IMG/VR virus record: IMGVR_UViG_3300032116_011554 | Location: 1-27,391 of that record | Reading direction: 5' to 3' (one strand) | DNA: 27,391 nucleotides | DNA from: a virus | In this document: piece by piece, positions 282 to 25,747 of the stretch | Layout of the letters: every line of letters begins with the position of its first letter | Position numbering within the stretch: position 1 is the stretch's first letter | The notes under the pieces: generated by a model | Databases searched by the model: none | The model's input: the letters and a program-made list of their open reading frames with translations, nothing else | What the model was told of the DNA's origin: nothing | Translations under genes and position numbers: made by a program

Positions 282-2048
282 ATGGCACTTACAAAAGAGC
301 AAATCTTAATAGAATATGCAAGGTGTATGAAAGATACACCATATGCACTGAGAACGTATTTACAGACTTATGATAATACGGTTCAAAAATATGTACCTGT
401 AGATTGTTTTCCCGATCAAATCGGATTATTAAACGACTATGATACGTATAATGAAAACATTGCACTAAAATATAGACAGGCGGGGGTTTCTACGGTTACC
501 GCTGCGTGGGCAAGTAAAAAATTGGTTTTTGCAATGAAACAAAAACCTGAAAAGATTTTGATAATTGCCAATAAGTTAGACACTGCCGTGGAAATGGCAA
601 ATAAGGTTAGGGGGTTTACAGAACAATGGCCTGGTTGGGTTGGTGTTGGATTCTCACCTGAAAAAAACTCACAGAGACATTTCAAGTTAACAAACGGATG
701 TGAGGTTAAAGCGGTTGCAACTTCTAAGGATGCACTTCGTGGTTATACCCCAACGATATTGATATTTGACGAGGCGGCGTATATTGAAGCCGATGGTGAT
801 TTTTGGGCAGCATGTATGGCATCACTATCTACGGGTGGTAAGGTAATTGTTATCTCAACCCCGAATGGTTTTGATCCGATTTATTATGAGATCTATGACC
901 AAGCGGTTAAAAATATGAACGATTTCAAAATATCTGAGATGGTTTGGTGGAAGGATCCGAGATATACTAAAGATTTATATTTGGTTAAAACAGAAAACAT
1001 TATTCATTACTTTTTGAACAGGGAGGAATATGGTAAAGAAACTTTGATTGATTATTCTTCAATACCATTTGAAAATAGGGATTTTGATGAGATCCGTGAT
1101 TTATTAAAGAATGGGTATTCACCATCTTCAGATTGGTTTGAAAAGATGGTAAAGAAGTTAAAGTTTGACAAACGAAAAGTTTCTCAAGAGTTGGAATGTA
1201 ACTTCCTTGGTTCGGGTGATAACGTATTTGATCAGACGGATATTGCGAGAATCAATAACAACTTAATTCAAGAACCTGCGGGAAGAATGTTGGGGGGTGC
1301 TCTATGGATATGGAAAGACCCCATACCGGGTCATAAATACATTATGGGGGTCGATGTATCAAGAGGGGATAGTGAGGACTTTACGACGTTCCAAATCGTT
1401 GATTTTGATGATCAGGAACAAGTTGTGGAATATCTTGGAAAAATACCACCTGATGTTGCTGCGGAGATCTGTTATAAATGGGCAACAATGTATGATGCGT
1501 TTATTGTGATTGATATTACCGGTGGTATGGGGGTATCCACGGCAAGGAAACTTCAAGAACTTGGATATAAGAATTTATTTTTTGATGGTGTGGATTATCA
1601 GAATAGATGGAAGTTTGACCCTAAAGCAGCAAATAAAGTTCCTGGTTTGAATTTTAATAGTAAGAGAGAACAGATTATTGGTGCGTTGGAGGAGAAGGTA
1701 AGACACGGATATAAGATTAGAAGTAATCGTTTGTTAAACGAGATGAGAACGTTTGTGTATGTCAATGGTCGTGCTGATCACCAAAAAGGACAACACGATG
1801 ATTTATTGATGTCCCTTGCTATGGCGATATATGTTGGTGAAAATTCTTTTTCATCATTGACAAAAGTTACTGAACAAACTAAAGCATTGATTGATGCGTG
1901 GCAGGTGGCGGAAAGTCCTATGTTAAAAGAGAACTTTTTTAGTCCGATGACCCCATCATTTAATAATCAACAACACGTAAGAAAAAACGGACCTACAAGA
2001 CAGGATTACCAAAATTATAATTGGTTGTTCGGTGGAAAGGGAAGATAA
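282..2048 (+). CDS. 17: Terminase large subunit (T4 gp17-like)
   Basis: This is the DNA packaging motor ATPase and headful nuclease, which docks on the portal and pumps genome into the prohead. At 588 residues it is close to the usual gp17 length. The N-terminal ATPase has a deviant Walker A, KYRQAGVST (residues 63-71). It has V69 where the usual lysine of GK[ST] would be, and R65 or K63 may substitute. Walker B with the catalytic acid is ILIFDEAAY (D163, E164), and the STPNG coupling motif follows at 192-196. The C-terminal RNase H-like nuclease shows GVDVSRG (D358), VIDITGG (D411) and GQHDDLL (D506, D507), the expected three acidic clusters. The start at 282 follows a terminator and TATTTATA box and has no Shine-Dalgarno. 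The portal gene follows after 36 bases. T4 has tail sheath and tube genes (18, 19) in that position, and they are missing here. Confidence 0.96.
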   Translation: MALTKEQILIEYARCMKDTPYALRTYLQTYDNTVQKYVPVDCFPDQIGLLNDYDTYNENIALKYRQAGVSTVTAAWASKKLVFAMKQKPEKILIIANKLDTAVEMANKVRGFTEQWPGWVGVGFSPEKNSQRHFKLTNGCEVKAVATSKDALRGYTPTILIFDEAAYIEADGDFWAACMASLSTGGKVIVISTPNGFDPIYYEIYDQAVKNMNDFKISEMVWWKDPRYTKDLYLVKTENIIHYFLNREEYGKETLIDYSSIPFENRDFDEIRDLLKNGYSPSSDWFEKMVKKLKFDKRKVSQELECNFLGSGDNVFDQTDIARINNNLIQEPAGRMLGGALWIWKDPIPGHKYIMGVDVSRGDSEDFTTFQIVDFDDQEQVVEYLGKIPPDVAAEICYKWATMYDAFIVIDITGGMGVSTARKLQELGYKNLFFDGVDYQNRWKFDPKAANKVPGLNFNSKREQIIGALEEKVRHGYKIRSNRLLNEMRTFVYVNGRADHQKGQHDDLLMSLAMAIYVGENSFSSLTKVTEQTKALIDAWQVAESPMLKENFFSPMTPSFNNQQHVRKNGPTRQDYQNYNWLFGGKGR

Positions 2049-2084: not shown

Positions 2085-3899
2085 ATGGAAAATAAAAAAC
2101 TAACTATTTGGCAGAGATTGTCAAAAACAATGGGTCCTGACTCATTGATTAATAATGATTATCCAACATTCAAATTTGATAAGGAGGTTCTATTAAAAAC
2201 CACTGATAAGTCGGAATATGAGAAGGAAAAACTCCAAGCAAAACAATCAAAATATTTAACGGGGCATTGGGCTAAGATTGAGAACAATTTATATCAACAA
2301 TCAATATATTATGGTCCTACTAGATTGGCGGCGGCGTATGATTACGAAAGTATGGAATATACCCCCGAAATATCTGCGGCACTTGATATATATGCTGAAG
2401 AATCCACAACTGTGGATGAAAACGGTCACATTCTTCAAATTTATTCTGAATCAAAAAGAATAAAATCAATATTGGCGGATTTGTTTAATAACGTTTTGGA
2501 TATCAATACAAATTTGGCTATGTGGACAAGAAATACTTGTAAATATGGTGACAACTTTGTGTATCTAAAATTAGATCCCGAAAATGGTATTGTTGGTAAC
2601 TTCCAATTACCAAATATTGAAATTGAACGTTTGGAACGTGGAATGCATATGGGACCAAGAGTTGGTGAGGGTGCTCCCGAAATGAAATCAATGAAGTTTG
2701 CATGGAAGAATAAGCAATTAGAGTTTAACACTTGGGAAATCGCTCACTTTAGATTATTGGGTGATGATAGAAAACTACCTTATGGTACTTCCATGTTAGA
2801 AAAAGCAAGAAGAATTTGGAAACAATTGGTATTAGCGGAAGATGCGATGTTAATTTATAGAACATCACGAGCACCCGAAAGAAGGGTGTTTAAAGTGTTT
2901 GTTGGAAATATGGATGATGATGATGTGGATTCTTATGTACAAAAGTTTGCGAACCGTTTTAAACGACAACCGATTGTTGATGACCAAACGGGTAACGTTG
3001 ATTTGAGGTATAATCAAATGGCGGTAGATCAAGATTATTTTGTCCCTGTTCGTGATGTTGCACAAGCATCACCGATTGATACCTTACAAGGTGCTCAAAA
3101 CTTATCCGAAATTGCCGATATTGAATACATACAAAAAAAGTTGGTTACCGCACTTAGAATACCTAAAGCATTTTTAGGATTTGAAGAAGTTGTGGGTAAT
3201 GGTAAAGATTTGGCACTTTTGGATATTAGGTTTGCAAGAACCATTAATCGTATTCAAAAAAGTATGTTGCAGGAATTAAATAAGATTGCAATTATACACT
3301 TGTTTATTTTAGGGTTTGAAGATGAATTATCAAACTTCACATTGAGTTTAACAAATCCATCAACACAGGCAGATCTATTGAAGATTGATGTTTGGAAAGA
3401 AAAATTGATGGCGTATAAAGACACTGTTACACCTATTGAGGGTATTGCTCCCGCATCGGTTTCTTGGGCTAAAAAGCACATTCTCGGATTTTCTGATGAG
3501 GATATTAAGTTAGACTTACAACAACAGAGAATTGAAAAAGCGGTATCCACAGAACTTACAAATACACCAAATGTTATTAAGAAAACCGGTTTATTTGATA
3601 CGTTGGATAAGTTATACACTGAGGGTCCAACACCTACTGATGCTGCAGCAGCACCCGCGGCAGCACCCCCTCCACCCGGAGGAGGTCTTGAAGGTGGTTT
3701 AGGTGGAGGATTGGGTGAACCACCACCACCCCCACCACCCGGAGGTCCTGAACCAGGGTTAGAAACTGCAAGTGTTGATAAAAAATTCAATTTAATTTTT
3801 GAATCTGAATTAAGTGTTGATGAGTATTTTGATCTAAAAAAGGGAAATAAATCAATTGATGACTTAAATGAAGAGTTTAATAAGTTATTAAACGATTAA
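2085..3899 (+). CDS. 20: Portal protein (T4 gp20-like)
   Basis: This is the dodecameric portal at the unique head vertex, which nucleates prohead assembly and is the channel for DNA packaging. Signature stretches of the gp20 family are visible: EISAALDIYAEESTTVDENG (95-114), NTNLAMWTRNTCKYGDNF (141-158), LPYGTSMLEKARRIWKQL (231-248) and AEDAMLIYRTSRAPERRVF (251-269). The family-typical body ends near residue 515. After it comes an unusual low-complexity Ala/Pro/Gly linker (about 520-558, with runs of four and seven prolines). A short charged helix-forming end then begins KKFNLIFESEL. The I-F-E-S there fits the T4 gp21 cleavage rule ([LI]-x-E before a small residue), so E573 may be a processing site removing the last 31 residues. 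It lies between terminase and an unknown 232-aa gene. Confidence 0.96.
   Translation: MENKKLTIWQRLSKTMGPDSLINNDYPTFKFDKEVLLKTTDKSEYEKEKLQAKQSKYLTGHWAKIENNLYQQSIYYGPTRLAAAYDYESMEYTPEISAALDIYAEESTTVDENGHILQIYSESKRIKSILADLFNNVLDINTNLAMWTRNTCKYGDNFVYLKLDPENGIVGNFQLPNIEIERLERGMHMGPRVGEGAPEMKSMKFAWKNKQLEFNTWEIAHFRLLGDDRKLPYGTSMLEKARRIWKQLVLAEDAMLIYRTSRAPERRVFKVFVGNMDDDDVDSYVQKFANRFKRQPIVDDQTGNVDLRYNQMAVDQDYFVPVRDVAQASPIDTLQGAQNLSEIADIEYIQKKLVTALRIPKAFLGFEEVVGNGKDLALLDIRFARTINRIQKSMLQELNKIAIIHLFILGFEDELSNFTLSLTNPSTQADLLKIDVWKEKLMAYKDTVTPIEGIAPASVSWAKKHILGFSDEDIKLDLQQQRIEKAVSTELTNTPNVIKKTGLFDTLDKLYTEGPTPTDAAAAPAAAPPPPGGGLEGGLGGGLGEPPPPPPPGGPEPGLETASVDKKFNLIFESELSVDEYFDLKKGNKSIDDLNEEFNKLLND
3642..3758 (+). 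repeat. Low-complexity Ala/Pro/Gly coding segment in the portal tail
   Basis: Codons for about 39 residues of alanine, proline and glycine make a locally GC-rich island in AT-rich DNA. It looks like a flexible or polyproline linker between the portal body and a short C-terminal peptide. It also creates a long spurious antisense frame. Confidence 0.75.
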
Positions 3900-3925: not shown

Positions 3926-4624
3926 ATGGAATTAGGATTATTATTCTCTAAGGTTGAGAAAAAATTAAATGACTCATACATCAATCAAACATTCAAGACT
4001 GAAATAAGTAATTTCAAAAATATTGTTATTTCAAACAAAATGCTTAGTGAATGTTATTATTTATATTCGAACCTTACAACTAAGCAAGGTATGAGTTCGG
4101 ACGTTGCCAAGGAATATTTGGAAGAAAGTATCAAAACAATTAAAAATAAAAAAGATCATTTATTTTTAATTGATCTTAAAAATTGGGTTAAGGATGTTGT
4201 TTGTGAAAATCAATATGTTAAAATAGATTCTTTATTAAAAGAGGACGTGTTAAAAATCACGGAAAATATTGAAAACAAAAAACAATTGGTTTCAACTTTA
4301 ACTGAATCCAAAGATGTTGTGAAAAAACAATTTGTTCCTTTTGTTGAGAACGTCGTTAAATACAATTTGGAAAAATATATTGATGGTTTGGAACCCGAGG
4401 TGTTACAACAGCTGGATGAAGTATTTTCCAAAAAAGAAGATGAATTAAAACCTGATTTTGATGTATTAAAAGAAAATACGTTAATTAAGTTGAAGAATCA
4501 CATATTAACAAATAATGATGAAGAAATTAAACAGAAACTCAATGAGACTGTTCAAACAGTTGAAAAGGAACCGTTTAATAAAATTAATTACTTAAAACTA
4601 CAAAACTTATACGAAGGACTTTAA
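3926..4624 (+). CDS. Unknown helical protein between portal and protease (prohead core candidate)
   Basis: I do not recognise this family. The 232 residues are rich in Lys, Glu, Leu and Asn, have no Cys-rich or catalytic motif, and look largely alpha-helical or coiled-coil (for example residues 75-190). In T4 the place between genes 20 and 21 is occupied by the small prohead core proteins gp67 and gp68, so a scaffold or core role is a positional guess. The C-terminus ends ...LQNLYEGL. L-Y-E-G fits the gp21 protease cleavage rule, which would be in keeping with a processed core protein. Its stop codon overlaps by four bases (TTAA) with the stop of the convergent bS21 gene, inside a hairpin. 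Confidence 0.82.
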   Translation: MELGLLFSKVEKKLNDSYINQTFKTEISNFKNIVISNKMLSECYYLYSNLTTKQGMSSDVAKEYLEESIKTIKNKKDHLFLIDLKNWVKDVVCENQYVKIDSLLKEDVLKITENIENKKQLVSTLTESKDVVKKQFVPFVENVVKYNLEKYIDGLEPEVLQQLDEVFSKKEDELKPDFDVLKENTLIKLKNHILTNNDEEIKQKLNETVQTVEKEPFNKINYLKLQNLYEGL

Positions 4625-4643
4625 TCTAAGTCCTTCTTTTTTT
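4613..4643 (+). terminator. Terminator hairpin made from the ends of two convergent genes
   Basis: GAAGGACTT (4613-4621) pairs with AAGTCCTTC (4628-4636) across a six-base loop, and seven Ts follow. The hairpin contains the last codons and stop of the plus-strand gene ending at 4624 and the last codons and stop of the minus-strand bS21 gene ending at 4621. The T run serves the plus strand. On the minus strand no good T run follows, so termination there is doubtful. Confidence 0.75.
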
Positions 4644-4809
4644 GATTATATTTTGCTTTGTTAATCTCAGTTCTACGTTTAACAGATTTTTTAACATATT
4701 CTCTGTTACCATACAGAATATCCATCTGTTTTGTTTTAATCACTTTCATCTTATAATGTTTAAGTGCTTTATCAAGTGATTTAAAATCACTTACTTCAAC
4801 TATTATCAT
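4621..4809 (-). CDS. rpsU: Phage-encoded ribosomal protein bS21
   Basis: The 62-residue protein reads as a complete bS21. It has the N-terminal strand MIIVEVSDFKSLDKALKHYK, a K/R-rich helix, and the family-typical stretch EYVKKSVKRRTEINKAKY (37-54) ending in lysines. bS21 sits on the platform of the 30S subunit near the 3' end of 16S rRNA. From published work on Flavobacterium ribosomes, as I recall it, bS21 with bS18 and bS6 holds the anti-Shine-Dalgarno. An aromatic residue of bS21 near position 54 contributes to this, and Y54 is present here. Phage-borne bS21 copies are known from marine and large phages. The gene is inverted within the head operon, convergent with the 3926 gene and divergent from the 4879 gene, so it is an independent transcription unit. 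No Shine-Dalgarno is seen upstream. Confidence 0.88.
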   Translation of the reverse strand: MIIVEVSDFKSLDKALKHYKMKVIKTKQMDILYGNREYVKKSVKRRTEINKAKYNQKKKDLD

Positions 4810-4849
4810 TTTTGACTTTTTGGTTTTTATGTTTTATGTATTATGTAAA

Positions 4850-4857
4850 AATAAATA
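4850..4857 (-). promoter_or_regulatory. TATTTATT box in the divergent gap before bS21
   Basis: Read on the minus strand the sequence is TAATATTTATTTTTA, about 40 bases before the bS21 start codon. On the plus strand the same bases read AATAAATA, 21 bases before the ATG at 4879, and resemble the classical T4 late box. Which gene it serves cannot be decided by eye. Confidence 0.35.
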
Positions 4858-4878: not shown

Positions 4879-5325
4879 ATGAAGAAGGGTAAAACTTCTA
4901 AATTAAGTGGGTATAAGAATACGAAAGTTACATACGGCACGGTAGATTCAAAAGAATTAAAATCAATTTACATCAATTTTCAATCGTGGTTATCACCAAC
5001 CAAAGAATTTGAAAAATGGAATAAACCAATTACAATCTTACAAAGAAATATAAAACAGGTTGTTACAGACACCATAGATAAAAAATTATTCAAAGAAAAT
5101 TTCATTATTGATTTGGATGTTAAAATGAGTGGGTTATCTTATGGTAAAAAAAGTTTCGGAAATTTGGAAATAACCTTATTTACCAATCAAAATATAGATT
5201 TCAGAGAAACAATTATTAAAGACAATATTAAAGAAATTTGTGACTCAATATATGTTGATTGTTTCATAAATTCAGATGACTTTAATTTTTCATTATCAAA
5301 AAAAGAACCACAGATGGAATATTGA
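4879..5325 (+). CDS. Conserved-looking hypothetical protein, 148 aa
   Basis: I do not recognise this protein. It has a basic N-terminus (MKKGKTSKLSGYKNTK) followed by a mixed alpha/beta body. It lacks a signal peptide, membrane segment or cysteine pattern beyond two isolated cysteines near residues 115-121. It sits in the T4 position between portal and prohead protease, with only 15 bases to the protease start, so co-expression with head genes is likely. A minor prohead or head-completion role is possible but rests on location only. Confidence 0.78.
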   Translation: MKKGKTSKLSGYKNTKVTYGTVDSKELKSIYINFQSWLSPTKEFEKWNKPITILQRNIKQVVTDTIDKKLFKENFIIDLDVKMSGLSYGKKSFGNLEITLFTNQNIDFRETIIKDNIKEICDSIYVDCFINSDDFNFSLSKKEPQMEY

Positions 5326-5327
5326 TA

Positions 5328-5335
5328 TATTTATA
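5328..5335 (+). promoter_or_regulatory. TATTTATA box before the prohead protease
   Basis: TATTTATA within GATATATTTATATC starts three bases after the stop of the 4879 gene (5325) and ends 5 bases before the protease ATG. The spacing matches that of the box before the 10750 gene. Confidence 0.45.
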
Positions 5336-5340
5336 TCAAA

Positions 5341-6084
5341 ATGACGTTTATGAAAATTTTAGGACCAAACGAAATAGGTAAAGGAATATTAGTTGAGTGG
5401 GACGCGGGATATATCGATCCACAAGATAGAATGAATAGAAAAGTTTTGGAAGAATCAAAGAATATGTTAGATTATTCCAAACCTTTTGAATTTTATGCTG
5501 TGTTACAAAAATATAATACACCAAATAGGAACGGTAGGATTTATCCCGAAAGCATATTAAGAAGAGAGGTTGATAACTATAAAAAGGCAATCAACAAGGG
5601 AACTGCTTTATCCGAATTAAACCACCCCGAGTCATCATTAATTGATCTTGATCGTGTATCACATGCGATAACCGAAATATGGTGGGATGGAAATGTGTGT
5701 TTAGGAAAACTTAAACTACTAACATCACCAGGATTCCATGAAAGAGGTATTGTATCAACAAAAGGTGACCAAGCAGCAAACCTATTAAGACAAGGGGTTA
5801 CATTAGGGATTTCTTCAAGGGGTGTTGGATCACTTAAAAAAGTTGGAGAACAAAACGAAGTTCAAGGTGATTTTGAGTTAATTTGTTTTGACTTGGTATC
5901 ATCTCCATCAACACCCGGAGCTTATTTATTTTCCAATCCCGACGATAGGTTTAAATTTGAAGAAAATTTGGATGAGGAAAAAAGAATTAGGGATAATCAA
6001 ACATCAACTCCTAAAAATAATTCTTCTTTTGAAAACAAATCGCTTGACCTTATGAAAAAACTTTCGCATTATTTGGGTAAGTAA
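5341..6084 (+). CDS. 21: Prohead core protease (T4 gp21-like)
   Basis: This is the serine protease that is built into the prohead and cleaves scaffold and capsid proteins before packaging. The 247 residues show the family layout. There is an N-terminal strand region, PNRNGRIYPESIL (61-73), then the catalytic histidine in ELNHPESS (H95). The catalytic serine lies in TLGISSRGVGS (S158/S159) and the downstream acid in ICFDLVSSPSTPGAY (D184). The C-terminal 45 residues are charged and low in complexity, probably a removable tail. A second ATG three codons in (MKILGPNE) is an alternative start. It lies between the 148-aa unknown and the DUF4494-like gene, and is followed by scaffold and major capsid as in T4. 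Confidence 0.95.
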   Translation: MTFMKILGPNEIGKGILVEWDAGYIDPQDRMNRKVLEESKNMLDYSKPFEFYAVLQKYNTPNRNGRIYPESILRREVDNYKKAINKGTALSELNHPESSLIDLDRVSHAITEIWWDGNVCLGKLKLLTSPGFHERGIVSTKGDQAANLLRQGVTLGISSRGVGSLKKVGEQNEVQGDFELICFDLVSSPSTPGAYLFSNPDDRFKFEENLDEEKRIRDNQTSTPKNNSSFENKSLDLMKKLSHYLGK

Positions 6085-6093
6085 ATTTATATT

Positions 6094-6309
6094 ATGGAAG
6101 AAAAATATTTTGTAGCAAAAGTTCAATACGATTTACCTGATGAAAACACAGGTCGTATTAAAAAAATTCGTGAAGAGAAATTGGTTAATGCAATATCGGT
6201 TACCGATGTTGAAGCAATTGTAACGAAGAAATATGAAGGGTTCCCTCACGAATGGAGGATCACTTCAGTATCAGAGAGTAAAATCAATGAAGTTTTTGAT
6301 AAAGACTAA
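6094..6309 (+). CDS. Small DUF4494-like protein
   Basis: The 71 residues read MEEKYFVAKVQYD, then a charged turn, then EEKLVNAISVTDVEAIV and a short C-terminal strand WRITSVSESK. This resembles the Bacteroidota-restricted DUF4494 family as I remember it: a small beta-alpha protein beginning W/YFxVKVxY with ...LVxALSxTEAEA.... The function is unknown. It follows the protease after 9 bases and precedes a strong terminator, so it ends the protease transcription unit. The assignment is by eye and tentative; existence as a gene is likely because of its spacing and codon use. Confidence 0.78.
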   Translation: MEEKYFVAKVQYDLPDENTGRIKKIREEKLVNAISVTDVEAIVTKKYEGFPHEWRITSVSESKINEVFDKD

Positions 6310-6425: not shown

Positions 6426-8027
6426 ATGGCAGACAAAAAGTCATTAGCTGAAGATGTGATGAACCAAATCAAAGGTTTGGAAGAAGTCATCGCTGAAAAT
6501 GCAAAAGGAATACTTTCTTCTACAATGAAGGAAGAAATCTCTGAATTGGTAAAAGAGTCTTTGATGGTAGAGGCTAAAGATAAACCCGAAGAAGACGAGG
6601 ACGAAATGGAAATTGATGTTGACATGGAAGATGAGGACGAAATGGATTCTGACGAAAATGAGGATGAAATGGAAGACGAGGACGAAATGGAGATTGATAT
6701 GGACATGGAAGACGAGGACGAAATGGAATTTGATATGGATATGGAAGATGATTCTGAAACCTTAGATCTTACTAACGCTAGTCCCGAAGAAGTTGCTGCT
6801 GTTTTCAAAAAACTTGGACCTAACGACAAAATTGAAGTTGTTAAAGATGGTAATTTTTTAAACATCAAAGACGAAGAGGATGATTCTGAATTTCTTATTC
6901 GCATGAATGAGGAAGAAGATGAGTTAGACGAGATGGAAGATGAATTTGATTTTTCCGATGAAGATTCTGATGAACTTATGGACAAACTTTTCAGTGAAAT
7001 GTATGATGAAGAAGAAGAATCTTACATGAACGAAATGGATGAAGAATCCGAAGAAGAAGAGGAAGAAGAAGGTATCATGTACGAAATCGAAATGGAAGAA
7101 GACATGGACATGGAAATGGGTATGGATGATGATGAAATGGACATGGAAATGGATATTGATGACATCATGTACGAAATTGAAATGGAAGAAGAAGACATGG
7201 AGGAAGAATCTTATATGAACGAGTCTATGAAAAAACCAATGGGTAAAATCAAACCTGTAATGTCTATGGGTATGATGGGTAAATCTAAAATGACAAAACC
7301 ATCTAAGAGATCTACACATAAAGAAATGGGTGAATCAAAACCCGTTGTAGGTAAAGGTGCTAAAACAGGTAAACCTTCTTTTGATTACAAAACAAATCAA
7401 AAATCTGATTTTGATAAAGGTAACACTGGTGGAAAACACGAATATAAAATCGGTAGTGGTGCAAAATTAGGTAAAGCTAAGTTTGAATTCAAAGAAGGAT
7501 CCTTGGATGGTGCTATGAAAAAAGAAATGAGACCTTTCAAAAAAGAAACTAAAGAAGCTTCAAGATCATACGCATTTGGTTCTAAGAGCGGACGTGGTTT
7601 AAGAAAAGGTTTTACGCCGAACAGAAATTTAAATCTTGAAAGTGAAATTGATGTTTTAAGATCAAAAAATGAAGAGTATAGAAAAGCATTGAATATTTTC
7701 AGAGACAAATTAAATGAAGTTGCGGTATTCAACTCAAACTTGGCTTACGCTACAAGATTATTCACTGAGCATTCAACAACAAAACAAGAAAAGATTAACA
7801 TTTTGAAACGTTTTGATAGTGTTGAAACATTGAAAGAATCTAAGTCAGTGTATAAAACAATCAAAGATGAGTTGGGATCAAAAACTGTTGCAATGAATGA
7901 GTCAATAGAACAAAAAATTGAAAAGCCGATTTCAACTGGTTCTTCAAATGTTTTGGTAGAATCTAAGACTTATGAAAATCCTCAGTTTTTAAGAATGAAA
8001 GACATTATGTCAAAAATTGTAAAATAA
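6426..8027 (+). CDS. 22: Prohead scaffold / core protein (T4 gp22-like) with hyperacidic repeats
   Basis: This should be the scaffold around which the capsid assembles, cut up by gp21 afterwards. It directly precedes the major capsid gene as in T4. The C-terminal part (about 401-483) is a helical block, with ESEIDVLRSKNEEYRKAL, then NEVAVFNSNLAYATRLFTEH and KQEKINILKRFDSVETLKES, which I recognise from gp22-type scaffolds. The N-terminal half differs: residues about 57-265 are an Asp/Glu/Met repeat zone (EDEDEMEID, DMEMGMDDDEMDM, IMYEIEMEEEDME). A basic Lys/Gly-rich segment follows (about 270-395, e.g. GKIKPVMSMGMMGKSKMTK). At 533 residues it is roughly twice T4 gp22. LVES and YMNES sites may be gp21 targets. 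Two antisense frames across the repeats are artefacts of composition. Confidence 0.9.
   Translation: MADKKSLAEDVMNQIKGLEEVIAENAKGILSSTMKEEISELVKESLMVEAKDKPEEDEDEMEIDVDMEDEDEMDSDENEDEMEDEDEMEIDMDMEDEDEMEFDMDMEDDSETLDLTNASPEEVAAVFKKLGPNDKIEVVKDGNFLNIKDEEDDSEFLIRMNEEEDELDEMEDEFDFSDEDSDELMDKLFSEMYDEEEESYMNEMDEESEEEEEEEGIMYEIEMEEDMDMEMGMDDDEMDMEMDIDDIMYEIEMEEEDMEEESYMNESMKKPMGKIKPVMSMGMMGKSKMTKPSKRSTHKEMGESKPVVGKGAKTGKPSFDYKTNQKSDFDKGNTGGKHEYKIGSGAKLGKAKFEFKEGSLDGAMKKEMRPFKKETKEASRSYAFGSKSGRGLRKGFTPNRNLNLESEIDVLRSKNEEYRKALNIFRDKLNEVAVFNSNLAYATRLFTEHSTTKQEKINILKRFDSVETLKESKSVYKTIKDELGSKTVAMNESIEQKIEKPISTGSSNVLVESKTYENPQFLRMKDIMSKIVK
6590..7230 (+). repeat. Imperfect tandem repeats encoding Asp/Glu/Met-rich peptides
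   Basis: Units such as GACGAGGACGAAATGGA recur several times between 6590 and 6750. A second family, ATCATGTACGAAAT(C/T)GAAATG, is found at about 7074 and 7165. Copies differ mainly at synonymous sites, indicating old or selected repeats rather than fresh slippage. They make the acidic arm of the scaffold protein. Confidence 0.75.
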
Positions 8028-8056: not shown

Positions 8057-9919
8057 ATGGGAGCATTATTAGAAAGCGGTCTTGTTGGTAACATTGGTCT
8101 TAAGCACCTAAAAGTTATCAAAGAAGATACTATTAACAAATGGAACAAGCTTGGGTTCCTTGAAGGTTTGAGCGGTCACTTGAAAGAGAACATGGCTCAA
8201 TTGTATGAAAACCAAGCATCTTTTTTAATAAACGAATCAACATCGACTGCAGATTCAGGTTCTTTTGAAACGGTTGTATTTCCTATCATCAGACGTGTAT
8301 TCTCTAAGTTGTTAGCAAATGATATCGTTTCTGTACAAGCAATGAACTTACCTATCGGTAAATTGTTCTACTTCGTACCTAAAATTCAGGGTTATAGTGG
8401 TGGTAGTAACTATTATCAAACTAATGGTGCTTCAGGACAACATATTCCACCTATCGGTTCTCCAGGTAACTATCCTGGTGATCCAAATGGAGGATATACA
8501 ACAACACTTGGTACCGGTAACTATAACAACACATATTCAAAAAATCTCTATGATTTGTTCTATGAAGGAACTGAACCTGGTTTAGACCCAGCAGGTCTTT
8601 TCGACTATTCTAAAGGTCCTTGGTGGTTAGTAACTGCTGACACTGCAACATTTGCGTTTGATAGTAATGGTGCTTTGGTACCTTCAGCATATGCTTTTGA
8701 CGCAAACACTAAAAAAGTAATTATTGGTATGTCAGGGTTTTCTAACGTAGGTAACGGTAAACTTATTGGTCCTGATGGTCAAGAAATGGATACAGAATCT
8801 TTCTTATCTGATTTGAGAATTCTTGGGTCATCAAGTAACCCATTCACATCAGCGAACCAATATAACCCTTACTTATTTAGAGTTGTGACTCAACAATATG
8901 GTAAAGGTATAGTTCAGTACGGTACAAACACTACCACAAGTTGGAATAACTCACTCCTTTCGACTAACACACCGGGTAACGGAGGAGCATTCTTCAACAT
9001 CGCATCACAAAATGGTATTATTTTCTTAGAAGTAGATCTTACATCACCAGCAACATTTGGTTCTAATTCTTTAGATGGTTACACAGGTGCGACATTCTCT
9101 TCTCAAACAGCTATCAATACTTCATTCAGAGCGGTTTATAGAAGATATAAAGAGTTAGAATTTGAAGATGCTATCGGTGAAGTTTCTTTTGATTTGGAAT
9201 CTGTAACTGTATCGGTAACAGAAAGAAAATTAAGAGCACAATGGTCTCCTGAATTGGCACAAGACGTTGCAGCATTCCACAACATTGACGCTGAAGCTGA
9301 ATTGACAGCATTGTTGTCAGAACAAGTTGCTGCGGAAATTGACCGTGAAATTCTTCGTGACCTTAGAAAAGGTGCGGCTTGGAACTTGAGATGGGATTAT
9401 AATGGTTGGAAGAGAATTTCTTCTACATCATTCGCACCTTACACTCAAAAGGACTGGAACCAAACTCTTATCACAGCAATTAACCAAATCTCCGCTCAAA
9501 TTCACAAATCAACTTTGAGAGGTGGTGCTAACTGGATCGTTGTATCTTCTGAAGTATCCGCTATCTTTGATGATTTGGAATATTTCCACGTATCAAACGC
9601 GGCTCCTGAGCAAGATCAATACAACATGGGTATTGAAAGAGTTGGTACATTAGCAGGTCGTTACCAAGTGTATAGAGATCCTTACTTCCCACCAAACCAA
9701 GTATTGTTGGGTCACAAAGGTACTTCTCTATTGGATACTGGTTACGTTTACGCACCGTATGTACCTCTACAATTAACTCCAACGATGTACAATCCATTCA
9801 ACTTCACGCCTATTAAAGGTATTATGACACGTTACGCGAAGAAGATGGTCAACAATCGCTTCTATGGCCGTATTACCGTTGATGGTGTTAGAACATTCGA
9901 TTTGAGAGAATTGAGATAA
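8057..9919 (+). CDS. 23: Major capsid protein (T4 gp23-like)
   Basis: This is the hexamer-forming shell protein. Diagnostic gp23 stretches are present: MNLPIGKLFYFVPKIQ (about 96-111), the long helix block VTERKLRAQWSPELAQDVAA and AEAELTALLSEQVAAEIDRE (about 380-435), GRYQVYRDPYFPPNQVLLG (about 533-551), and the C-terminal YAPYVPLQLTPTMYNPFNF with ITVDGVRTFDLREL. The N-terminal 60 residues look like the T4 delta-piece. FLINESTST gives I58-N59-E60 before S61, matching the gp21 rule and close to T4's cleavage after residue 65. A Gly/Asn/Tyr/Pro-rich stretch (about 113-190) is an apparent surface insertion, which with other loops makes the protein (620 aa) longer than T4 gp23 (about 520). A strong terminator follows. 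Confidence 0.97.
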   Translation: MGALLESGLVGNIGLKHLKVIKEDTINKWNKLGFLEGLSGHLKENMAQLYENQASFLINESTSTADSGSFETVVFPIIRRVFSKLLANDIVSVQAMNLPIGKLFYFVPKIQGYSGGSNYYQTNGASGQHIPPIGSPGNYPGDPNGGYTTTLGTGNYNNTYSKNLYDLFYEGTEPGLDPAGLFDYSKGPWWLVTADTATFAFDSNGALVPSAYAFDANTKKVIIGMSGFSNVGNGKLIGPDGQEMDTESFLSDLRILGSSSNPFTSANQYNPYLFRVVTQQYGKGIVQYGTNTTTSWNNSLLSTNTPGNGGAFFNIASQNGIIFLEVDLTSPATFGSNSLDGYTGATFSSQTAINTSFRAVYRRYKELEFEDAIGEVSFDLESVTVSVTERKLRAQWSPELAQDVAAFHNIDAEAELTALLSEQVAAEIDREILRDLRKGAAWNLRWDYNGWKRISSTSFAPYTQKDWNQTLITAINQISAQIHKSTLRGGANWIVVSSEVSAIFDDLEYFHVSNAAPEQDQYNMGIERVGTLAGRYQVYRDPYFPPNQVLLGHKGTSLLDTGYVYAPYVPLQLTPTMYNPFNFTPIKGIMTRYAKKMVNNRFYGRITVDGVRTFDLRELR

Positions 9920-9969: not shown

Positions 9970-10010
9970 GTTTCTTTAAGTAATAGTTGATTTTTTGGTC
10001 GTATGTGTTA

Positions 10011-10018
10011 TATTTATT
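10011..10018 (+). promoter_or_regulatory. TATTTATT box before the HNH gene
   Basis: GTTATATTTATTATT ends directly at the ATG at 10022, with the box 3 bases from the start codon. It comes after terminator copy A, so the HNH cassette has its own candidate promoter. Confidence 0.42.
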
Positions 10019-10021
10019 ATT

Positions 10022-10699
10022 ATGAAGAAATATATCCCATCTGAAGAAGAATTAATTAATATTCTTAAAATGTATAATGACGAATTATTAGGTTCACAAT
10101 CAATATCACAAAAAACTGGTTTATCTAAACCTGTTATTTTAAGAGTTTTAAGGGAAAACAACGCTAAATTAGGTCCTTCCGGTAGACGATTCATAGGGGG
10201 TAAAAAAGTTGCCGACAAAAAATATCGTGAAAAAAATAAAAAAAAATTATCTGATAATCATAAAAAATGGTATGAAGAAAATAAGGAAAAATGGAACGAG
10301 TATATAAAAGAATACCGTGAAAACAATAAAGAAAAAATTAGAGAAACTAAACGTAATTACGAAAGAACTCGTAAAGCTAATGACCCCATCTATAAGTTAA
10401 TCAACAATTTCAGAACGGCGATTTATCAGGTATTGAAAGAGAATAATGTTCAAAAGAATGGTCATTATTTTGATATCTTAAAATATTCACCCGACGATTT
10501 GATTGATCATTTAGAAAAACAATTTATGGATAATATGACGTGGGACAATTATGGGCAATGGCACGTTGATCATATCCAACCAATATCATCGTTTGATATC
10601 CGAGAGATTGGGGATGATAAGTTCATGGAGTGTTGGTCTTTAAGAAATCTACAACCGTTATGGGGTGAAGAAAATATCAGAAAATCCAATAAGTTTTAA
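10022..10699 (+). CDS. HNH endonuclease, probable free-standing homing endonuclease
   Basis: The 225-residue protein carries an HNH nuclease at its C-terminus: WHVDHIQPISSF (180-191; H181, D183, H184), then SLRNLQPLWGEENIRKSNK (206-224; N209, N218, N223). Near the N-terminus is a helix-turn-helix-like segment, SQSISQKTGLSKPVILRVLR (25-44). The middle (65-118) is a highly charged Lys/Glu/Tyr/Asn helix with a repeated YxEKNK/YRENNKEK pattern. Such genes spread between T4-like phages by cutting sites next to their own location. I chose ATG 10022 because it sits behind the TATTTATT box; a TTG nine codons upstream is unlikely. The gene stands alone between two identical terminators, downstream of the major capsid gene, which suggests a mobile cassette. 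Target and activity are not deducible here. Confidence 0.9.
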   Translation: MKKYIPSEEELINILKMYNDELLGSQSISQKTGLSKPVILRVLRENNAKLGPSGRRFIGGKKVADKKYREKNKKKLSDNHKKWYEENKEKWNEYIKEYRENNKEKIRETKRNYERTRKANDPIYKLINNFRTAIYQVLKENNVQKNGHYFDILKYSPDDLIDHLEKQFMDNMTWDNYGQWHVDHIQPISSFDIREIGDDKFMECWSLRNLQPLWGEENIRKSNKF

Positions 10700-12223: not shown

Positions 12224-13414
12224 ATGGATTATAAAGAACTATTAAGATTATTAGGTTATGACGACACATCATTATATGGTTATCGTAGTGATGAAGAATA
12301 TGAAAAGCGAATTAAATTTTTGGTTAAAATTATTTCTTGGATTGAAAGAAATAATAAATACACGGAGTTTAAGTCAAAAATTGAAGATCATTTACTTGAT
12401 GTTAGAAGGTCGTATAACTCACATATTAAAAAACAGAATGAGTTTTTACATCAAAAACAGATGGCTCAAGAAATGTTGGAAGAGGGTGAATTTTTAGATG
12501 AACCTTATTTATTAGTTGCGTATAACTTCCTTTGTAATGAAGGTTTCTTTATATATGACAATTATGAGGAAATGTATGAAGTGTACAAAAAATTAAAAAA
12601 GGATGAGGAGAAGGTAGATATTTTAAGATCAAAAATAGATAAGATCAAAGATCCGGCAAAAAGAAAAAAGGCTGAAGATTATATAACTAAGTATGATGAG
12701 GATCTTGAGGTATTTAATGAAAACTCAATTGGTCTATTATATCACACGGGACATTATAGAGAACTTGCGGAATATACTGTCCTACAAGGTAATTACTATA
12801 CTGCTAGAAACGTAGTTATTGTCGGTAATGAGGATGATTGGGATACATCACTTAAAGATTGGGTTGAAGATTTAGACTTTGAAAATTGGGGTGATGAATA
12901 TATTGAGAGTTACTTAAATTCAAATGAAATATATAACTATATTGAGGACGGTGAAAGGGAAAATTATGAAGAGAGGATTAGAGAATCACCATCAAGTTAT
13001 TTTGAAACAGATGAACTGATATTAACGGAATCTCAACAGGAAACAATACAAGAATTGGAAAATGAACTATCCACTCTTGATCCAAACGAAGATGAGGATA
13101 GAATTAAGGAAATTGAAGATGAAATTCAAGAAATTAAAGACAATCCCGAAGGTCTTGATGAGGATTTAATTGATGACAAAATTGATGACAAAATTGATGA
13201 AATACTAAGTGATATTAAAGATGAAATTGAGGATAACCCTGCAAGATATCTAAGAAACAATGGGTTGGATCCTGATCAATTTTTTGATCGTGAAAGGGCT
13301 GTCCGAGATTATCTTTATGATACAAATTATGGTGCACTAACATACGATGATAATTACGATTCATTTAATATAAATGGTACTGTAATATACGTTGGTTGGT
13401 ATAATAAACCATAA
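12224..13414 (+). CDS. Large acidic protein of unknown function, 396 aa
   Basis: Not recognised. The N-terminal 170 residues are charged and helical, with coiled-coil-like stretches (KKLKKDEEKVDILRSKIDKI, about 124-143). A middle part, GLLYHTGHYRELAEYTVLQG, is followed by an acidic, aromatic region rich in Asp/Glu/Trp/Tyr. Then come Asp/Glu/Ile repeats (IDDKIDDKIDEILSDIKDEI, about 310-330) and a C-terminal beta segment ending INGTVIYVGWYNKP. No membrane segment, cysteine cluster or catalytic signature is visible. The strong negative charge could suggest DNA mimicry or an inhibitor of a DNA-binding host protein, but that is speculation. It is a single-gene unit with its own TATTTATT box, a possible Shine-Dalgarno and a terminator. 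Confidence 0.85.
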   Translation: MDYKELLRLLGYDDTSLYGYRSDEEYEKRIKFLVKIISWIERNNKYTEFKSKIEDHLLDVRRSYNSHIKKQNEFLHQKQMAQEMLEEGEFLDEPYLLVAYNFLCNEGFFIYDNYEEMYEVYKKLKKDEEKVDILRSKIDKIKDPAKRKKAEDYITKYDEDLEVFNENSIGLLYHTGHYRELAEYTVLQGNYYTARNVVIVGNEDDWDTSLKDWVEDLDFENWGDEYIESYLNSNEIYNYIEDGERENYEERIRESPSSYFETDELILTESQQETIQELENELSTLDPNEDEDRIKEIEDEIQEIKDNPEGLDEDLIDDKIDDKIDEILSDIKDEIEDNPARYLRNNGLDPDQFFDRERAVRDYLYDTNYGALTYDDNYDSFNINGTVIYVGWYNKP

Positions 13415-19669: not shown

Positions 19670-19677
19670 TATAAATA
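19670..19677 (-). promoter_or_regulatory. TATTTATA box heading the minus virion block
   Basis: On the minus strand AATATTTATAGTTATG is almost identical to the region in front of the terminase gene (AATATTTATAGTTATG at 269-284). It lies in the 27-base gap after the late sigma factor gene. Confidence 0.52.
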
Positions 19678-19693: not shown

Positions 19694-20437
19694 TTAATCA
19701 ATCATACCATTAAGAGTTATTCCATATAGTTTTTTAAATTTCTTAATTGATGTTCTAATCTCTTTTGTTGATAGATTTGTCATCTCACGAAGAGTTAATA
19801 AAATTACATTTTTGTTAAATTTATTATTATCTGAACTAGGAAAAGTTTCCTCGTAGTTTTCAAAAATAACAATTAACGCCTCACCCAATTTTCTCTCACT
19901 GTGTGTCATTTCACTTTGATCCATAAATTTTTTTAAGTCTAACTTAAACTTATTTATAATATCTTCAGCATCAATCATGTCATTATCAATATAATAAACC
20001 ATGTCGGGTCTATTCTCTAAATTACTTGAAATATCTTCGTATGATATTTTTCTATTTGTATCTTTTTGGTCTTTGATGATTTGACCCATTAAATAGTTTT
20101 TACAAATAGTTCCAAAATAAGAATACGCTTTTTTCTCTTTTGATGGTGAAAACTTCTCGATCTTGGTCATAAGAAACGAGTGGGTGTCAATATGAATTTC
20201 ATCAAAATTCATATCTTTTCGATACAATTTATATCTTCTAATAATTGAAGATATCATTTTATCTAAAGGATCTCTTAAAAACTCGTTGTATATTTTATTT
20301 CTTTCATTAAAAGTGGTGGCGGTTAAGAACATCCTAACCGCCATTTCCTCTCTAACATCAAAATAGTTATCCTTGAGTGTTTTTCTACCCTTTCTTCTGA
20401 ATTGTATTGTGGTCTCTTCAGTTGAAGCGGATAACAT
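19694..20437 (-). CDS. 55: Late-transcription sigma factor (T4 gp55-like)
   Basis: This is a minimal sigma-70 family factor that directs host RNA polymerase to phage late promoters. In T4 it works with the clamp gp45 and the coactivator gp33, neither of which is in this window. The 247 residues include a sigma region 2-like core at about 55-135: DPLDKMISSIIRRYKLYRKD, then SFLMTKIEKFSPSKEKKAYS and YFGTICKNYLMGQIIKDQKD, which I recognise from gp55 proteins. A C-terminal helical end (TNLSTKEIRTSIKKFKKLYG) may be a partial HTH or clamp-contact part. It is the last gene of the sugar-modification operon; its ATG overlaps the stop of the upstream glycosyltransferase (TAATG). The candidate target is the TATTTATW box. 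Confidence 0.86.
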   Translation of the reverse strand: MLSASTEETTIQFRRKGRKTLKDNYFDVREEMAVRMFLTATTFNERNKIYNEFLRDPLDKMISSIIRRYKLYRKDMNFDEIHIDTHSFLMTKIEKFSPSKEKKAYSYFGTICKNYLMGQIIKDQKDTNRKISYEDISSNLENRPDMVYYIDNDMIDAEDIINKFKLDLKKFMDQSEMTHSERKLGEALIVIFENYEETFPSSDNNKFNKNVILLTLREMTNLSTKEIRTSIKKFKKLYGITLNGMID

Positions 20438-21243
20438 TAAGAAATAGGTTCGTATTTTATGCTTCTATCCTGATTAAAGAAATATTCTTTTTTTGCGGTA
20501 TTTAACCAAAACTTAACCTCATCATCGACAATTTTATCTTCACCAAATTTATAATTCCAAAAAATAGAACCTTCTCTTAAATTTTCGTGCTTATATCCCA
20601 TCTTTGGGATTGTCATGATTTTAACCGAATTGTAGGTCATTCGCAACAAGAACTCATAAACAAAGGTTAGTTTCATAGATGGTTTGATTCCACCAAAATC
20701 TAAAAATTGTTCTCTTTTCATAACCATTCCCGAACTTTGGAAGTTTTGATAGTCGTGTAACATGTCGTTGGTTAAATAACCAATCTCTGTTGTAAATCCC
20801 GCTGCGAATGTTGCTTCATTTGTAAAACCGGCAAACACCCCTTTATTATCAACATCCACAACAATAGGAAGATAAGCATCAACCTCATCTTGATAGATCT
20901 CATCATATTTTTTCACATTATCAAACCATATTGTTGCATATTCGTCATCAAATTCCAAAATAGAAATCCATTTAGATGTTGCGTTTTCGACCCCAAAATT
21001 AACCTGAGATGCAAAATTAGGTTCACCCACAAAAGGAACGATCTTTACATTAAGATCCCCAAAGTCATAACTTTTTAATAAAGTGTTTAGAGATTCTTCT
21101 TGTGTTGGAACAATGATAACCTCATTCAATGAAACCTTTTGTAATCTCAAAGAGTTGATTGATTTTTCAAAGTAAGTGTCAAAATCTTTAACCTTAGAAG
21201 ATTTAATTGGTAGTATTACTGATATATCAAATTTGTTTTCCAT
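20437..21243 (-). CDS. GT2-like glycosyltransferase (GT-A fold)
   Basis: The N-terminus is FDISVILPIKSSKVKDFDTY, then EKSINSLRLQKVSLNEVIIV, the usual opening of family 2 glycosyltransferases. The metal-binding acidic motif is ILEFDDEYA (about 94-102). A conserved acceptor-side region reads SSGMVMKREQFLDFGGIKPS. It has 268 residues and no membrane segment, so it is a soluble transferase. With the upstream nucleotide-sugar genes it is likely to attach a sugar to a phage virion protein, phage DNA or a host glycan; the sequence does not decide which. It lies 1 base after the stop of the next upstream gene, and its stop overlaps the start of the late sigma gene. Confidence 0.85.
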   Translation of the reverse strand: MENKFDISVILPIKSSKVKDFDTYFEKSINSLRLQKVSLNEVIIVPTQEESLNTLLKSYDFGDLNVKIVPFVGEPNFASQVNFGVENATSKWISILEFDDEYATIWFDNVKKYDEIYQDEVDAYLPIVVDVDNKGVFAGFTNEATFAAGFTTEIGYLTNDMLHDYQNFQSSGMVMKREQFLDFGGIKPSMKLTFVYEFLLRMTYNSVKIMTIPKMGYKHENLREGSIFWNYKFGEDKIVDDEVKFWLNTAKKEYFFNQDRSIKYEPIS

Positions 21244-21244
21244 A

Positions 21245-22306
21245 TTATTGATTGTTTAATTGCTGACTGAATACGTCTTTACGTTTATTTGAAAAGTCAC
21301 TGAATAATGCAACAACTTCCTTAGAGAATTTTTCATTATTACTAAATTTTTCCGCAGTTTCAATACCATTAGTGTATAATTCTGAATTAATGTTATCTTC
21401 CAACCAATTTTGTAAATAATTAGCCAAAACATTAACCATATCTAATTGATTCTCTACCCAAACACCGTTTTCTTGTTTCATCCATTCATGTTTCAAATTA
21501 GGTGTCTTACCAATTACCGGAACCCCCATTTTCATAGATTCTAATGGATAAGTCCCAAAAGAACTCGTGGGGTCAATCCAAACCGATACGAAACAATCTT
21601 TAATGGTGTTAGCCAATTGTTCCTCTGACATACCTCTCATATCACGGAAGGTAACCCATCTAAATTGTGGAAATTTCAAATAAAACTGTTTGATGAAGTT
21701 TAGTCCATCTCTTTGTTCTCTTGAATGAACCGCGACGATTGGTTTTGCGGGATACTTGTCTTTAGTGAAATGTTGGGAAATTATTGGTTCGATAATTGTA
21801 TATGAAATACTTTTCATAATATCGTCCATATAATTCTTCATGTTTTCTGACGTAACAACACACTTCAAAAATCCAAATTGGTTCCATGTTGTACCTGGTG
21901 CTAAGGTTTCAAACACATGATCATATGCTTGACATAAAACGATCTTTCCGCAAGGAAGATTTGCAACTTGTTCCATCACATAACCAAATATTTCAGGAAT
22001 AACTAAAATATCTTCGGGAGCGATAGCCAAATTTTGACCCTCAACAGATTGATGCTCAAGTTCGTCAAACTCAGCACCTAACCATTCACCTACCTTAATG
22101 TAGTCGGGTTTTTCATGTAACATGATCGGATTATAACCTTCGGTTTTTAATGACATTGCCATACGATAGATGTATGATAAGGACGCTTTGGCGTTTCCTT
22201 TTGTGTCTTGAACAAAGAAATAAATTCTAAATTTTTTAGATTCTATGTTCGAAATAGACAATTTTACTTTTTCAATCAAATTTTGATCCATATTATAAGT
22301 GTTCAA
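21245..22306 (-). CDS. GT-B type glycosyltransferase
   Basis: This 353-residue protein has the two-domain GT-B layout. The N-terminal part, FRIYFFVQDTKGNAKASLSY, contains a Gly-rich donor loop region. The C-terminal part has KPIVAVHSREQRDGLNFIKQ and FVSVWIDPTSSFGTYPLESM, then KMGVPVIGKTPNLKHEW, the typical nucleotide-sugar binding helix-loop of GT1/GT4 enzymes (E in PLESM). Two starts are possible. The ATG at 22306 overlaps the previous gene by 14 bases; the ATG five codons later (22291, MDQNLIEK) sits just after the previous stop and may be the true one. The substrate is unknown. It is co-transcribed with gmd, fcl and the GT2 enzyme. Confidence 0.84.
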   Translation of the reverse strand: MNTYNMDQNLIEKVKLSISNIESKKFRIYFFVQDTKGNAKASLSYIYRMAMSLKTEGYNPIMLHEKPDYIKVGEWLGAEFDELEHQSVEGQNLAIAPEDILVIPEIFGYVMEQVANLPCGKIVLCQAYDHVFETLAPGTTWNQFGFLKCVVTSENMKNYMDDIMKSISYTIIEPIISQHFTKDKYPAKPIVAVHSREQRDGLNFIKQFYLKFPQFRWVTFRDMRGMSEEQLANTIKDCFVSVWIDPTSSFGTYPLESMKMGVPVIGKTPNLKHEWMKQENGVWVENQLDMVNVLANYLQNWLEDNINSELYTNGIETAEKFSNNEKFSKEVVALFSDFSNKRKDVFSQQLNNQ

Positions 22307-22568
22307 TAAATTTATGTTTAAGCATTGTGTTGAAAGCTAGTTTGAAAGGTAGTGATGCGTTCTTAGCACTTTTAAGTCCTAAGTTATCATCAAAGTCTTC
22401 TTCCTCACCCATAACAACATCGATCATGGTTTTAACCACCTCGTATTTAACAACACTGATATGTTGTTCTCCCGTATCACCACTAACAGTTTCTTGTTTA
22501 GGGATGTTAATGAATTGTTCTATTTTTTCAATATCGATAAAATAGTGTTCTCCGAATAATTCAATCAT
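22293..22568 (-). CDS. Small hypothetical protein, 91 aa
   Basis: Not recognised. It reads MIELFGEHYFIDIEKIEQFI, then a Thr/Gly turn, a helix VVKYEVVKTMIDVVMGEEED and a conserved-looking end SLPFKLAFNTMLKHKFIEHL. There is no motif for catalysis. It overlaps the upstream HAD-like gene by 4 bases (ATGA) and may overlap the downstream glycosyltransferase, so it is translated as part of the operon. Its place between the HAD-like gene and the glycosyltransferase gives no clear hint of role. Confidence 0.75.
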   Translation of the reverse strand: MIELFGEHYFIDIEKIEQFINIPKQETVSGDTGEQHISVVKYEVVKTMIDVVMGEEEDFDDNLGLKSAKNASLPFKLAFNTMLKHKFIEHL

Positions 22569-23161
22569 TTTATTTCTTTTTTAATTAGTTCGTTAAATTC
22601 CTTAAACGTGTCAACGTTCCAAGTAATTTTACTGTTTTTATTATATTCAGTATTATATTTTATCAATATAGTAAAAATTGTAACTTTTGAAAGTAATTCG
22701 GGGTCACTTGTTAAAATTAAATCATAATCTTCCCAAAGTCTATCTACGGTTGTTTGATTATAAAATTTAACAGATTCTACCTCACAACCAAATTTAGACA
22801 GGAAAAACAGGGTGGCAGGTTTAGTTTTACCCTTTTCTTGTGAAAATATAGTTATTTCATGTTTATCCCTATTTTCCAAATAAAAATCTTGTAAATCGTG
22901 AAAGGTTGAAAGTTCTGTGGAACCTGCGTGACCAAAAATCTGCATTGGAAATTCTTCAAACATAAATGACAAATACTCCTCTTCATCCTTAAATGTAAAG
23001 TGATTAGTCAAAGTTAGTGAATCAATAGGTTCTGTGATTTTATATTCAAACTCGTCATTTTCAAAAACCTCAGATTTCTCGATCAAAAATTTTTCATAAG
23101 TTTGTTTGAATTTACCGATGGTGTCCCGAAGAACACCATTTACATCAATACCAATCCTCAT
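22565..23161 (-). CDS. HAD-like hydrolase (5'-nucleotidase-like) with altered motif I
   Basis: The 198 residues begin MRIGIDVNGVLRDTIGKF, in the form of the HAD motif I (hhhDxDGV). The second aspartate is replaced by asparagine (D6, N8), which in HAD phosphatases is the general acid/base. Later stretches, HEITIFSQEKGKTKPATLFF and DYDLILTSDPELL, are compatible with motifs II-IV. The size and N-terminus are like those of 5'(3')-deoxyribonucleotidases and phage HAD proteins. Because of N8 it may be a weak or non-hydrolytic enzyme, or a binding protein. It overlaps PhoH by four bases upstream and the 91-aa gene downstream. Confidence 0.68.
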   Translation of the reverse strand: MRIGIDVNGVLRDTIGKFKQTYEKFLIEKSEVFENDEFEYKITEPIDSLTLTNHFTFKDEEEYLSFMFEEFPMQIFGHAGSTELSTFHDLQDFYLENRDKHEITIFSQEKGKTKPATLFFLSKFGCEVESVKFYNQTTVDRLWEDYDLILTSDPELLSKVTIFTILIKYNTEYNKNSKITWNVDTFKEFNELIKKEIK

Positions 23162-23877
23162 TCTTCGTATTTTTTTAATATTTTAGAAATAAGTGGGTTT
23201 CTAACTACGTCCTCATTTGAGAATTCAAAGATACCAATGTCGTTGATATCGTTAAATCTCTGAAGTGCGTCGTACAATCCCGATTGTGTTTTTTCTTTAT
23301 ACCTATCAGTCTGTTCTAGGTCACCTGAGATGAAAAACTTACTGTTATACCCAATACGTGTCATAAGTAATTTCATTTGCTTAGGAGTTGCGTTTTGACC
23401 CTCCTCGAAGATTAAGATAGAGTTGTCAATGTTCATACCTCTCATATAAGCCAATGCGAATACCTCAACCACCTCATTTTCTACCAATTTTTCTTTAGCG
23501 TCTTTACCAATGATTTTACTTAATAGGTAATAGGATGGGAAGATATACGGATCCAACTTTTCTTCTAAATTGCCGGGTAATGCACCTAACTTTTCTTCTG
23601 CTTCAACAGCCGGTCTTACAATGATAATTTTTTCATAAGGAGTGTTGTGATCAACCAATAAATCCACCGCGGCTTTCATAGCGATAAATGATTTACCAAC
23701 ACCCGCAGGTCCTGAACAGATAGTTATTTGGTTACTAACCAAAGTATCATAATACTTTTTTTGATTATCTGTTAAAAATTTATCTTTTGATTTCTTTGTA
23801 ACAATTTTGTTAATAATGTCCTTTTTTGATAAAGGTTTTGATTCCTCCAAAGACAAATTTGATTTACGTCTAGTCAT
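23158..23877 (-). CDS. phoH: PhoH-like P-loop ATPase
   Basis: Clear PhoH family member. It has Walker A GPAGVGKS (56-63), the family stretch RPAVEAEEKLGALPGNLEEK (88-107), Walker B ILIFEEGQNATPKQMK (154-169) with Glu in place of the usual Asp, and SGDLEQTDR (184-192). At 239 residues it is the short, single-domain phage form. PhoH genes are very common in marine T4-like phages; a role in RNA metabolism or phosphate stress is proposed in the literature but not settled. It has a basic Ser/Lys-rich N-terminus (MTRRKSNLSLEESKPLSKKD). It sits 4 bases after the fcl stop and overlaps the HAD-like gene. Confidence 0.94.
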   Translation of the reverse strand: MTRRKSNLSLEESKPLSKKDIINKIVTKKSKDKFLTDNQKKYYDTLVSNQITICSGPAGVGKSFIAMKAAVDLLVDHNTPYEKIIIVRPAVEAEEKLGALPGNLEEKLDPYIFPSYYLLSKIIGKDAKEKLVENEVVEVFALAYMRGMNIDNSILIFEEGQNATPKQMKLLMTRIGYNSKFFISGDLEQTDRYKEKTQSGLYDALQRFNDINDIGIFEFSNEDVVRNPLISKILKKYEE

Positions 23878-23881
23878 TTAA

Positions 23882-25745: not shown

Positions 25746-25747
25746 TC

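Follow-up and report, generated by a model that had tools for sequence, protein, structure and literature searches.

The window analysed here is the whole of the virus fragment IMGVR_UViG_3300032116_011554, with a length of 27,391 bases. It contains homologues of gp17, gp20, gp21 and gp23 in order, the head block of a T4-like myophage, and a gene for ribosomal protein bS21 lies in this block, reversed relative to the genes of the terminase large subunit (TerL), portal, prohead protease and major capsid protein (MCP) (Table 1). An earlier note on this DNA had described a bS21 inverted inside a T4-like head block, and the Pfam matches of the four head proteins confirmed this description. An endonuclease VII-like gene (9995-10699, plus strand; phrog_1035) is located downstream of the MCP gene. 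A sugar-modification block adjoins the tail genes on the minus strand of 20437-27391; it encodes glycosyltransferases, GDP-mannose dehydratase, an epimerase, an FkbM methyltransferase and PhoH.

Table 1. Positions of the bS21 gene, its neighbours and the associated signals in the window.
Feature	Position	Strand	Remarks
TerL, T4 type	282-2048	+	PF03237
Portal protein gp20	2085-3899	+	PF07230
232-aa protein, function not assigned	3926-4624	+	convergent neighbour of bS21; stop codon overlaps the bS21 stop codon by 4 bases
Intrinsic terminator of the 232-aa gene	4613-4643	+	hairpin 4613-4636, then T-run; antisense to the last bS21 codons
bS21, 62 aa	4621-4809	-	ATG start; PF01165, 7jil_z, purifying selection
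Degenerate promoter-like site of the 148-aa gene, TTGACT-N17-TATGTA	4812-4840	+	read by eye
TATTTAT box, candidate late promoter element	4851-4857	-	same strand as bS21, 48 to 42 nt upstream of it
148-aa conserved protein, function not assigned	4879-5325	+	divergent neighbour of bS21; present in bS21-less relatives too
Prohead protease	5341-6084	+	PF03420
DUF4494 protein	6094-6309	+	PF14902
Probable scaffold	6426-8027	+	between protease and MCP; strongly acidic composition; without family match
MCP gp23	8057-9919	+	PF07068
Candidate late sigma factor (gp55-like), 247 aa	19694-20437	-	phrog_234, E 0.0036, weak

The profile search that the earlier note had suggested as a check gave a match of the bS21 product to PF01165 with 32.6 bits (cut-off 27; E 6.8e-8) over profile positions 2-54 of 55, which agreed with its reading of a full bS21. 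The closest solved structure is the bS21 of Flavobacterium johnsoniae (7jil chain z, E 7e-8), which is of the same family and length register. The alignment to this chain is gapless over residues 1-60; therefore, Y54 of the window protein corresponds to Tyr54 of the F. johnsoniae ribosome, and the note was right that this residue is kept. Helices were predicted at residues 12-36 and 41-61 (pLDDT 87, pTM 0.46), and the sole match of the predicted model in a PDB fold search was a bS21 chain, which at E 3.7 and with no Z of at least 2 is not significant. A chance open reading frame was ruled out by the PF01165 score, the match to 7jil_z and the purifying selection described below. The gene is best explained as a working bS21 of Bacteroidia type that a known group of T4-like Bacteroidetes phages carries at a fixed place in the head block.

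Chen et al. (2022; PMC9723584) reported 47 mostly freshwater Bacteroidetes phages in whose TerL-portal-protease-MCP region bS21 lies on the reverse strand, flanked by two hypothetical genes. Thus the setting, which the earlier note had singled out for attention, is not new. The window resembles these phages in the reverse-strand bS21, the flanking hypothetical genes, the head genes and the aromatic residue that they also reported at position 54, as well as in PhoH, the FkbM methyltransferase and the sugar genes; the window is a 27-kb fragment, and the likeness is one of gene order and bS21 features. The bS21_CN gene of Chen et al. was matched to neither the 232-aa nor the 148-aa neighbour.

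The hairpin and T-run that terminate the 232-aa gene are complementary to the bS21 codons KKKDLD-stop, and terminators were found at the equivalent place in relatives without bS21 and in the clade of locus L007. On the other side, most relatives have a consensus TTGACA-N17-TATnnT promoter for the 148-aa gene, with its -35 box near the bS21 start codon, and a promoter of this TTGAC type is also kept in the bS21-less relatives. The sequence TTGTCAAAA beside the bS21 start was considered as a leader motif and rejected; it corresponds to the reverse-complemented -35 box of the promoter of the 148-aa gene and showed no enrichment in the window. The 148-aa protein gave a confident alpha/beta model and one strong match, the uncharacterised Myoviridae protein A0A8S5L9A5. 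Its model had no significant match in the PDB, and the fold search gave no function. We rejected this gene as a bS21 partner, since it is found at all five of the loci that have no bS21 and is therefore not tied to bS21 here.

Relatives were collected by a TerL scan, which gave 76 viral loci, and by a bS21 scan, which gave 11; some of these loci are on the same contigs. bS21 was found in 53 loci (the window included, L001 excluded, and the loci of both scans counted apart), which hold 25 distinct proteins. In all bS21-bearing loci where both genes are covered, it lies on the opposite strand between the 232-aa and 148-aa genes. Tyr54 is present in 25 of 25 distinct phage bS21 and in 45 of 45 distinct Flavobacterium-type host bS21. 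In pairs of related phage bS21, dS is several-fold higher than dN (0.56 and 0.10 for the window type compared with L005). Judged from these substitution patterns, phage bS21 is under purifying selection.

In a tree of host and phage bS21, which had also been suggested with the earlier note, the phage copies formed one clade (99/89), and their nearest sampled cellular relatives were Flavobacterium-type bS21. The alignment has 64 columns, in which the row L190 is in a wrong reading frame, and the inner order of the tree is not reliable because of this small number of columns. The cellular sample outside Flavobacterium consisted of the best-scoring 30 of the loci of 198 phylum members and is therefore biased. 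bS21 itself was found in 197 of the 198 phylum genomes, mostly as a single copy. A first scan of genome contigs with the phage bS21 protein as query gave no match, and among the GenBank phage records searched for bS21 relatives the matches were huge metagenomic phages only, with identities of no more than 50%. The DUF4494 family is found mainly in Bacteroidota. The bS21 type, the DUF4494 gene, the published relatives and the genes without Shine-Dalgarno (SD) sequences indicate that the host of the window phage is probably a member of Bacteroidota, and the suspicion of a Bacteroidota phage in the earlier note is upheld in the sense of a Bacteroidota-type phage.

Five relatives (L033, L047, L061, L066 and L073) have no bS21 at the head-block site. 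Most bS21-bearing relatives have the gene flanked by the 232-aa gene end on one side and by the TTGAC-type promoter on the other, whereas in L047, L061, L066 and L073 the terminator is directly followed by the TTGAC-type promoter of the 148-aa gene. L033 has a bS21 pseudogene at 12552-12685, in which the first 16 codons are followed by a deletion and a frameshift, and its TerL groups among those of the bS21 carriers. The rest of these five fragmentary records gave no bS21. On the unrooted TerL tree three changes of the bS21 state are needed, of which gains and losses are not separable without a root. bS21 is not always needed, since five relatives do without it at this site, including one with a broken copy in a bS21-bearing clade. 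One broken copy and four further absences might also be taken as signs of a decaying hitchhiker without function. We find this hardly credible in view of the purifying selection, as the pairs that were compared had a much lower dN than dS, and the place of the gene is conserved across distant clades.

The sequence TATTTAT, tied with the overlapping ATATTTA, was the top 7-mer in the 60 bases upstream of the window genes on the sense strand, where it precedes 11 of 28 genes. The corresponding values were 0.63 on average in random windows (0 of 5000 reached 11), 1.5 in shuffled upstream regions (0 of 2000) and 2 on the antisense strand. The upstream regions had been viewed by eye before the motif was chosen, so this test was not blind, and the relatives give it partly independent support. 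In these the box was found upstream of the genes for TerL (20/27), portal (19/35), the 232-aa protein (28/29), protease (23/23), scaffold (17/23) and DUF4494 (4/20), for the most part within a narrow range of distances. The MCP leaders lacked it (0/20). Several genes of Flavobacterium phage immuto are also preceded by the box. Of 19 distinct bS21 leaders, 12 have it on the bS21 strand at -43 to -48; the exact box is missing in the other seven, most of which have a one-mismatch form at a similar position as read by eye. Boxes in the window stand before head and tail genes, for example at 271-277, 5328-5334 and 19671-19677, and the box is missing before the sugar-gene block from 20437 on.

We put TATTTAT forward as the mark of a candidate class of late promoters in these related phages; a published late motif of this sequence for such phages was not found in the literature searched. 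The late promoters of T4, which depend on gp55 (PMC7892883), are likewise short AT-rich -10-like boxes before late genes, and the window has a weak match to a late sigma factor. T4 has TATAAATA on the non-template strand, whereas the sense strand of the window has TATTTAT, its reverse complement. We infer that the box would be read by a late sigma factor, and the protein encoded at 19694-20437, which had no Pfam match, is a possible reader judging from its sequence. An AATAAAC element adjoining the box persists in the phages without bS21; therefore, some of this upstream stretch possibly acts for the 148-aa gene.

The box on the bS21 strand points to a late timing that bS21 would have in common with the head genes, and Chen et al. 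reported from RNA data that phage bS21 is expressed late, with the head genes (PMC9723584). The earlier note had taken the inversion as a sign of separate timing; this is not supported, because bS21 has the box of the head and tail genes on its own strand and because of these published data. Chen et al. also suggested that bS21 may be packaged in the virion, and the placement among head genes would fit such a role outside the ribosome, or one as an RNA-bound protein. However, both the ribosome-facing Y54 and the basic helices have been conserved, and we consider a role of this kind very unlikely.

The SD sequence was measured as the longest exact match to AAAGGAGGTGATC within 19 bases before the start codon. 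Among the Flavobacterium-type rpsU genes, 71 of 80 had a match of at least 6 nt, mostly AGGAGGTG. This strong SD is expected, as McNutt et al. (2023; PMC9976891) demonstrated that bS21 of F. johnsoniae is autoregulated via ribosomes lacking bS21, and that loss or mutation of bS21 shifts the ribosomes towards SD messages. On the other hand, the strong SD seen in many Flavobacteriales rpsU genes was not seen in the phage bS21 leaders, including that of the window; the longest match among 26 distinct leaders was 4 nt. The other phage head genes were much like them, with at most 5. As its leaders are without SD, phage bS21 has the coding sequence without the host control. The absence of SD is no rule for all phage bS21, because L201, the bS21 of a 735-kb phage outside the window group, keeps a strong SD (AAAGGAGG); the long open reading frames around this gene (near 5001) are mostly without SD. 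The absence of SD, the own-strand TATTTAT box, the antisense terminator and the bS21-less relatives with a pseudogene are new compared with the text of Chen et al. (PMC9723584), in which an SD comparison, the box, the terminator overlap and a pseudogene are not mentioned.

Taken together, we think it somewhat probable that late phage bS21 replaces or tops up host bS21 and keeps the anti-SD sequestered, so that the ribosome stays SD-independent. The gene would be transcribed late from its own opposite-strand promoter along with the head and tail genes, and we infer that its product would enter the host 30S subunit. There Tyr54 would keep the 3' tail of the 16S rRNA sequestered, and the host ribosome would be held in the SD-independent state used by the SD-less phage messages. 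Entry into the host 30S is supported by analogy with the bS21 of Pelagibacter phage HTVC008M, which enters E. coli ribosomes and leaves about 5% of translation activity (PMC6375957); this bS21 is also carried by a myophage, but it is of alphaproteobacterial origin and from a different host type. Replacement of host bS21, as raised in the earlier note, is therefore plausible. Its alternative, in which the phage copy would release the anti-SD, is improbable, as every distinct phage copy retains Y54 and the phage genes are SD-less.

The 5% figure might also be read as a sign that phage bS21 poisons host translation instead of aiding phage translation. However, it was obtained in a foreign ribosome, and late expression with the head genes coincides with the greatest need of the phage for translation; we regard such a shut-off as improbable. 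It is rather unlikely, though less so, that phage bS21 forms specialised ribosomes that actively select phage over host messages. The window protein has diverged from F. johnsoniae bS21, with M21, V23 and Q28 in place of R, F and T. At position 23 in F. johnsoniae numbering, V is found in 25/25 distinct phage proteins and F in 45/45 distinct host proteins; this position and positions 21 and 28 are fixed differences between phage and host. In the reading of specialised ribosomes, the protein would differ where the mRNA passes. These three positions match divergent positions of Chen et al., who gave 21, 23, 25 and 28 (PMC9723584); unlike in their report, our alignment shows lysine at 7jil position 25 for phage and host alike. 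Divergence of sequence is by itself no proof of selectivity, and no selectable leader feature is known, since SD sequences are largely lacking in phage and host messages alike. For the same reason, it is as credible as selectivity that phage bS21 supplies a subunit which is needed.

In the reading that we prefer, the phage bS21 gene should escape the host bS21 feedback because it has no SD, and ribosomes filled with phage bS21 would silence the SD-dependent host rpsU. The SD contrast suggests that phage bS21 may turn off host rpsU and itself stay outside that control. We offer tentatively, and as doubtful, the stronger idea of a one-way switch, in which the SD-less late phage bS21 would fill the ribosomes and deplete the bS21-deficient ones that host rpsU needs, so that host synthesis stops and phage synthesis continues. 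McNutt et al. proposed the opposite emphasis, in which autoregulation is a host counter-defence (PMC9976891).

Flavobacterium bS21 conceals the anti-SD and also sets its own synthesis via SD recognition. Phage bS21 is reportedly the commonest virus-encoded ribosomal protein. The pairing of a strong-SD host rpsU with an SD-less phage bS21 offers a direct, inexpensive way to test if phages make use of this feedback loop, and the close relatives with and without bS21, together with a fresh pseudogene, provide natural comparison pairs. If the one-way switch is true, the phage would turn the host's own feedback loop to the replacement of a ribosomal protein.
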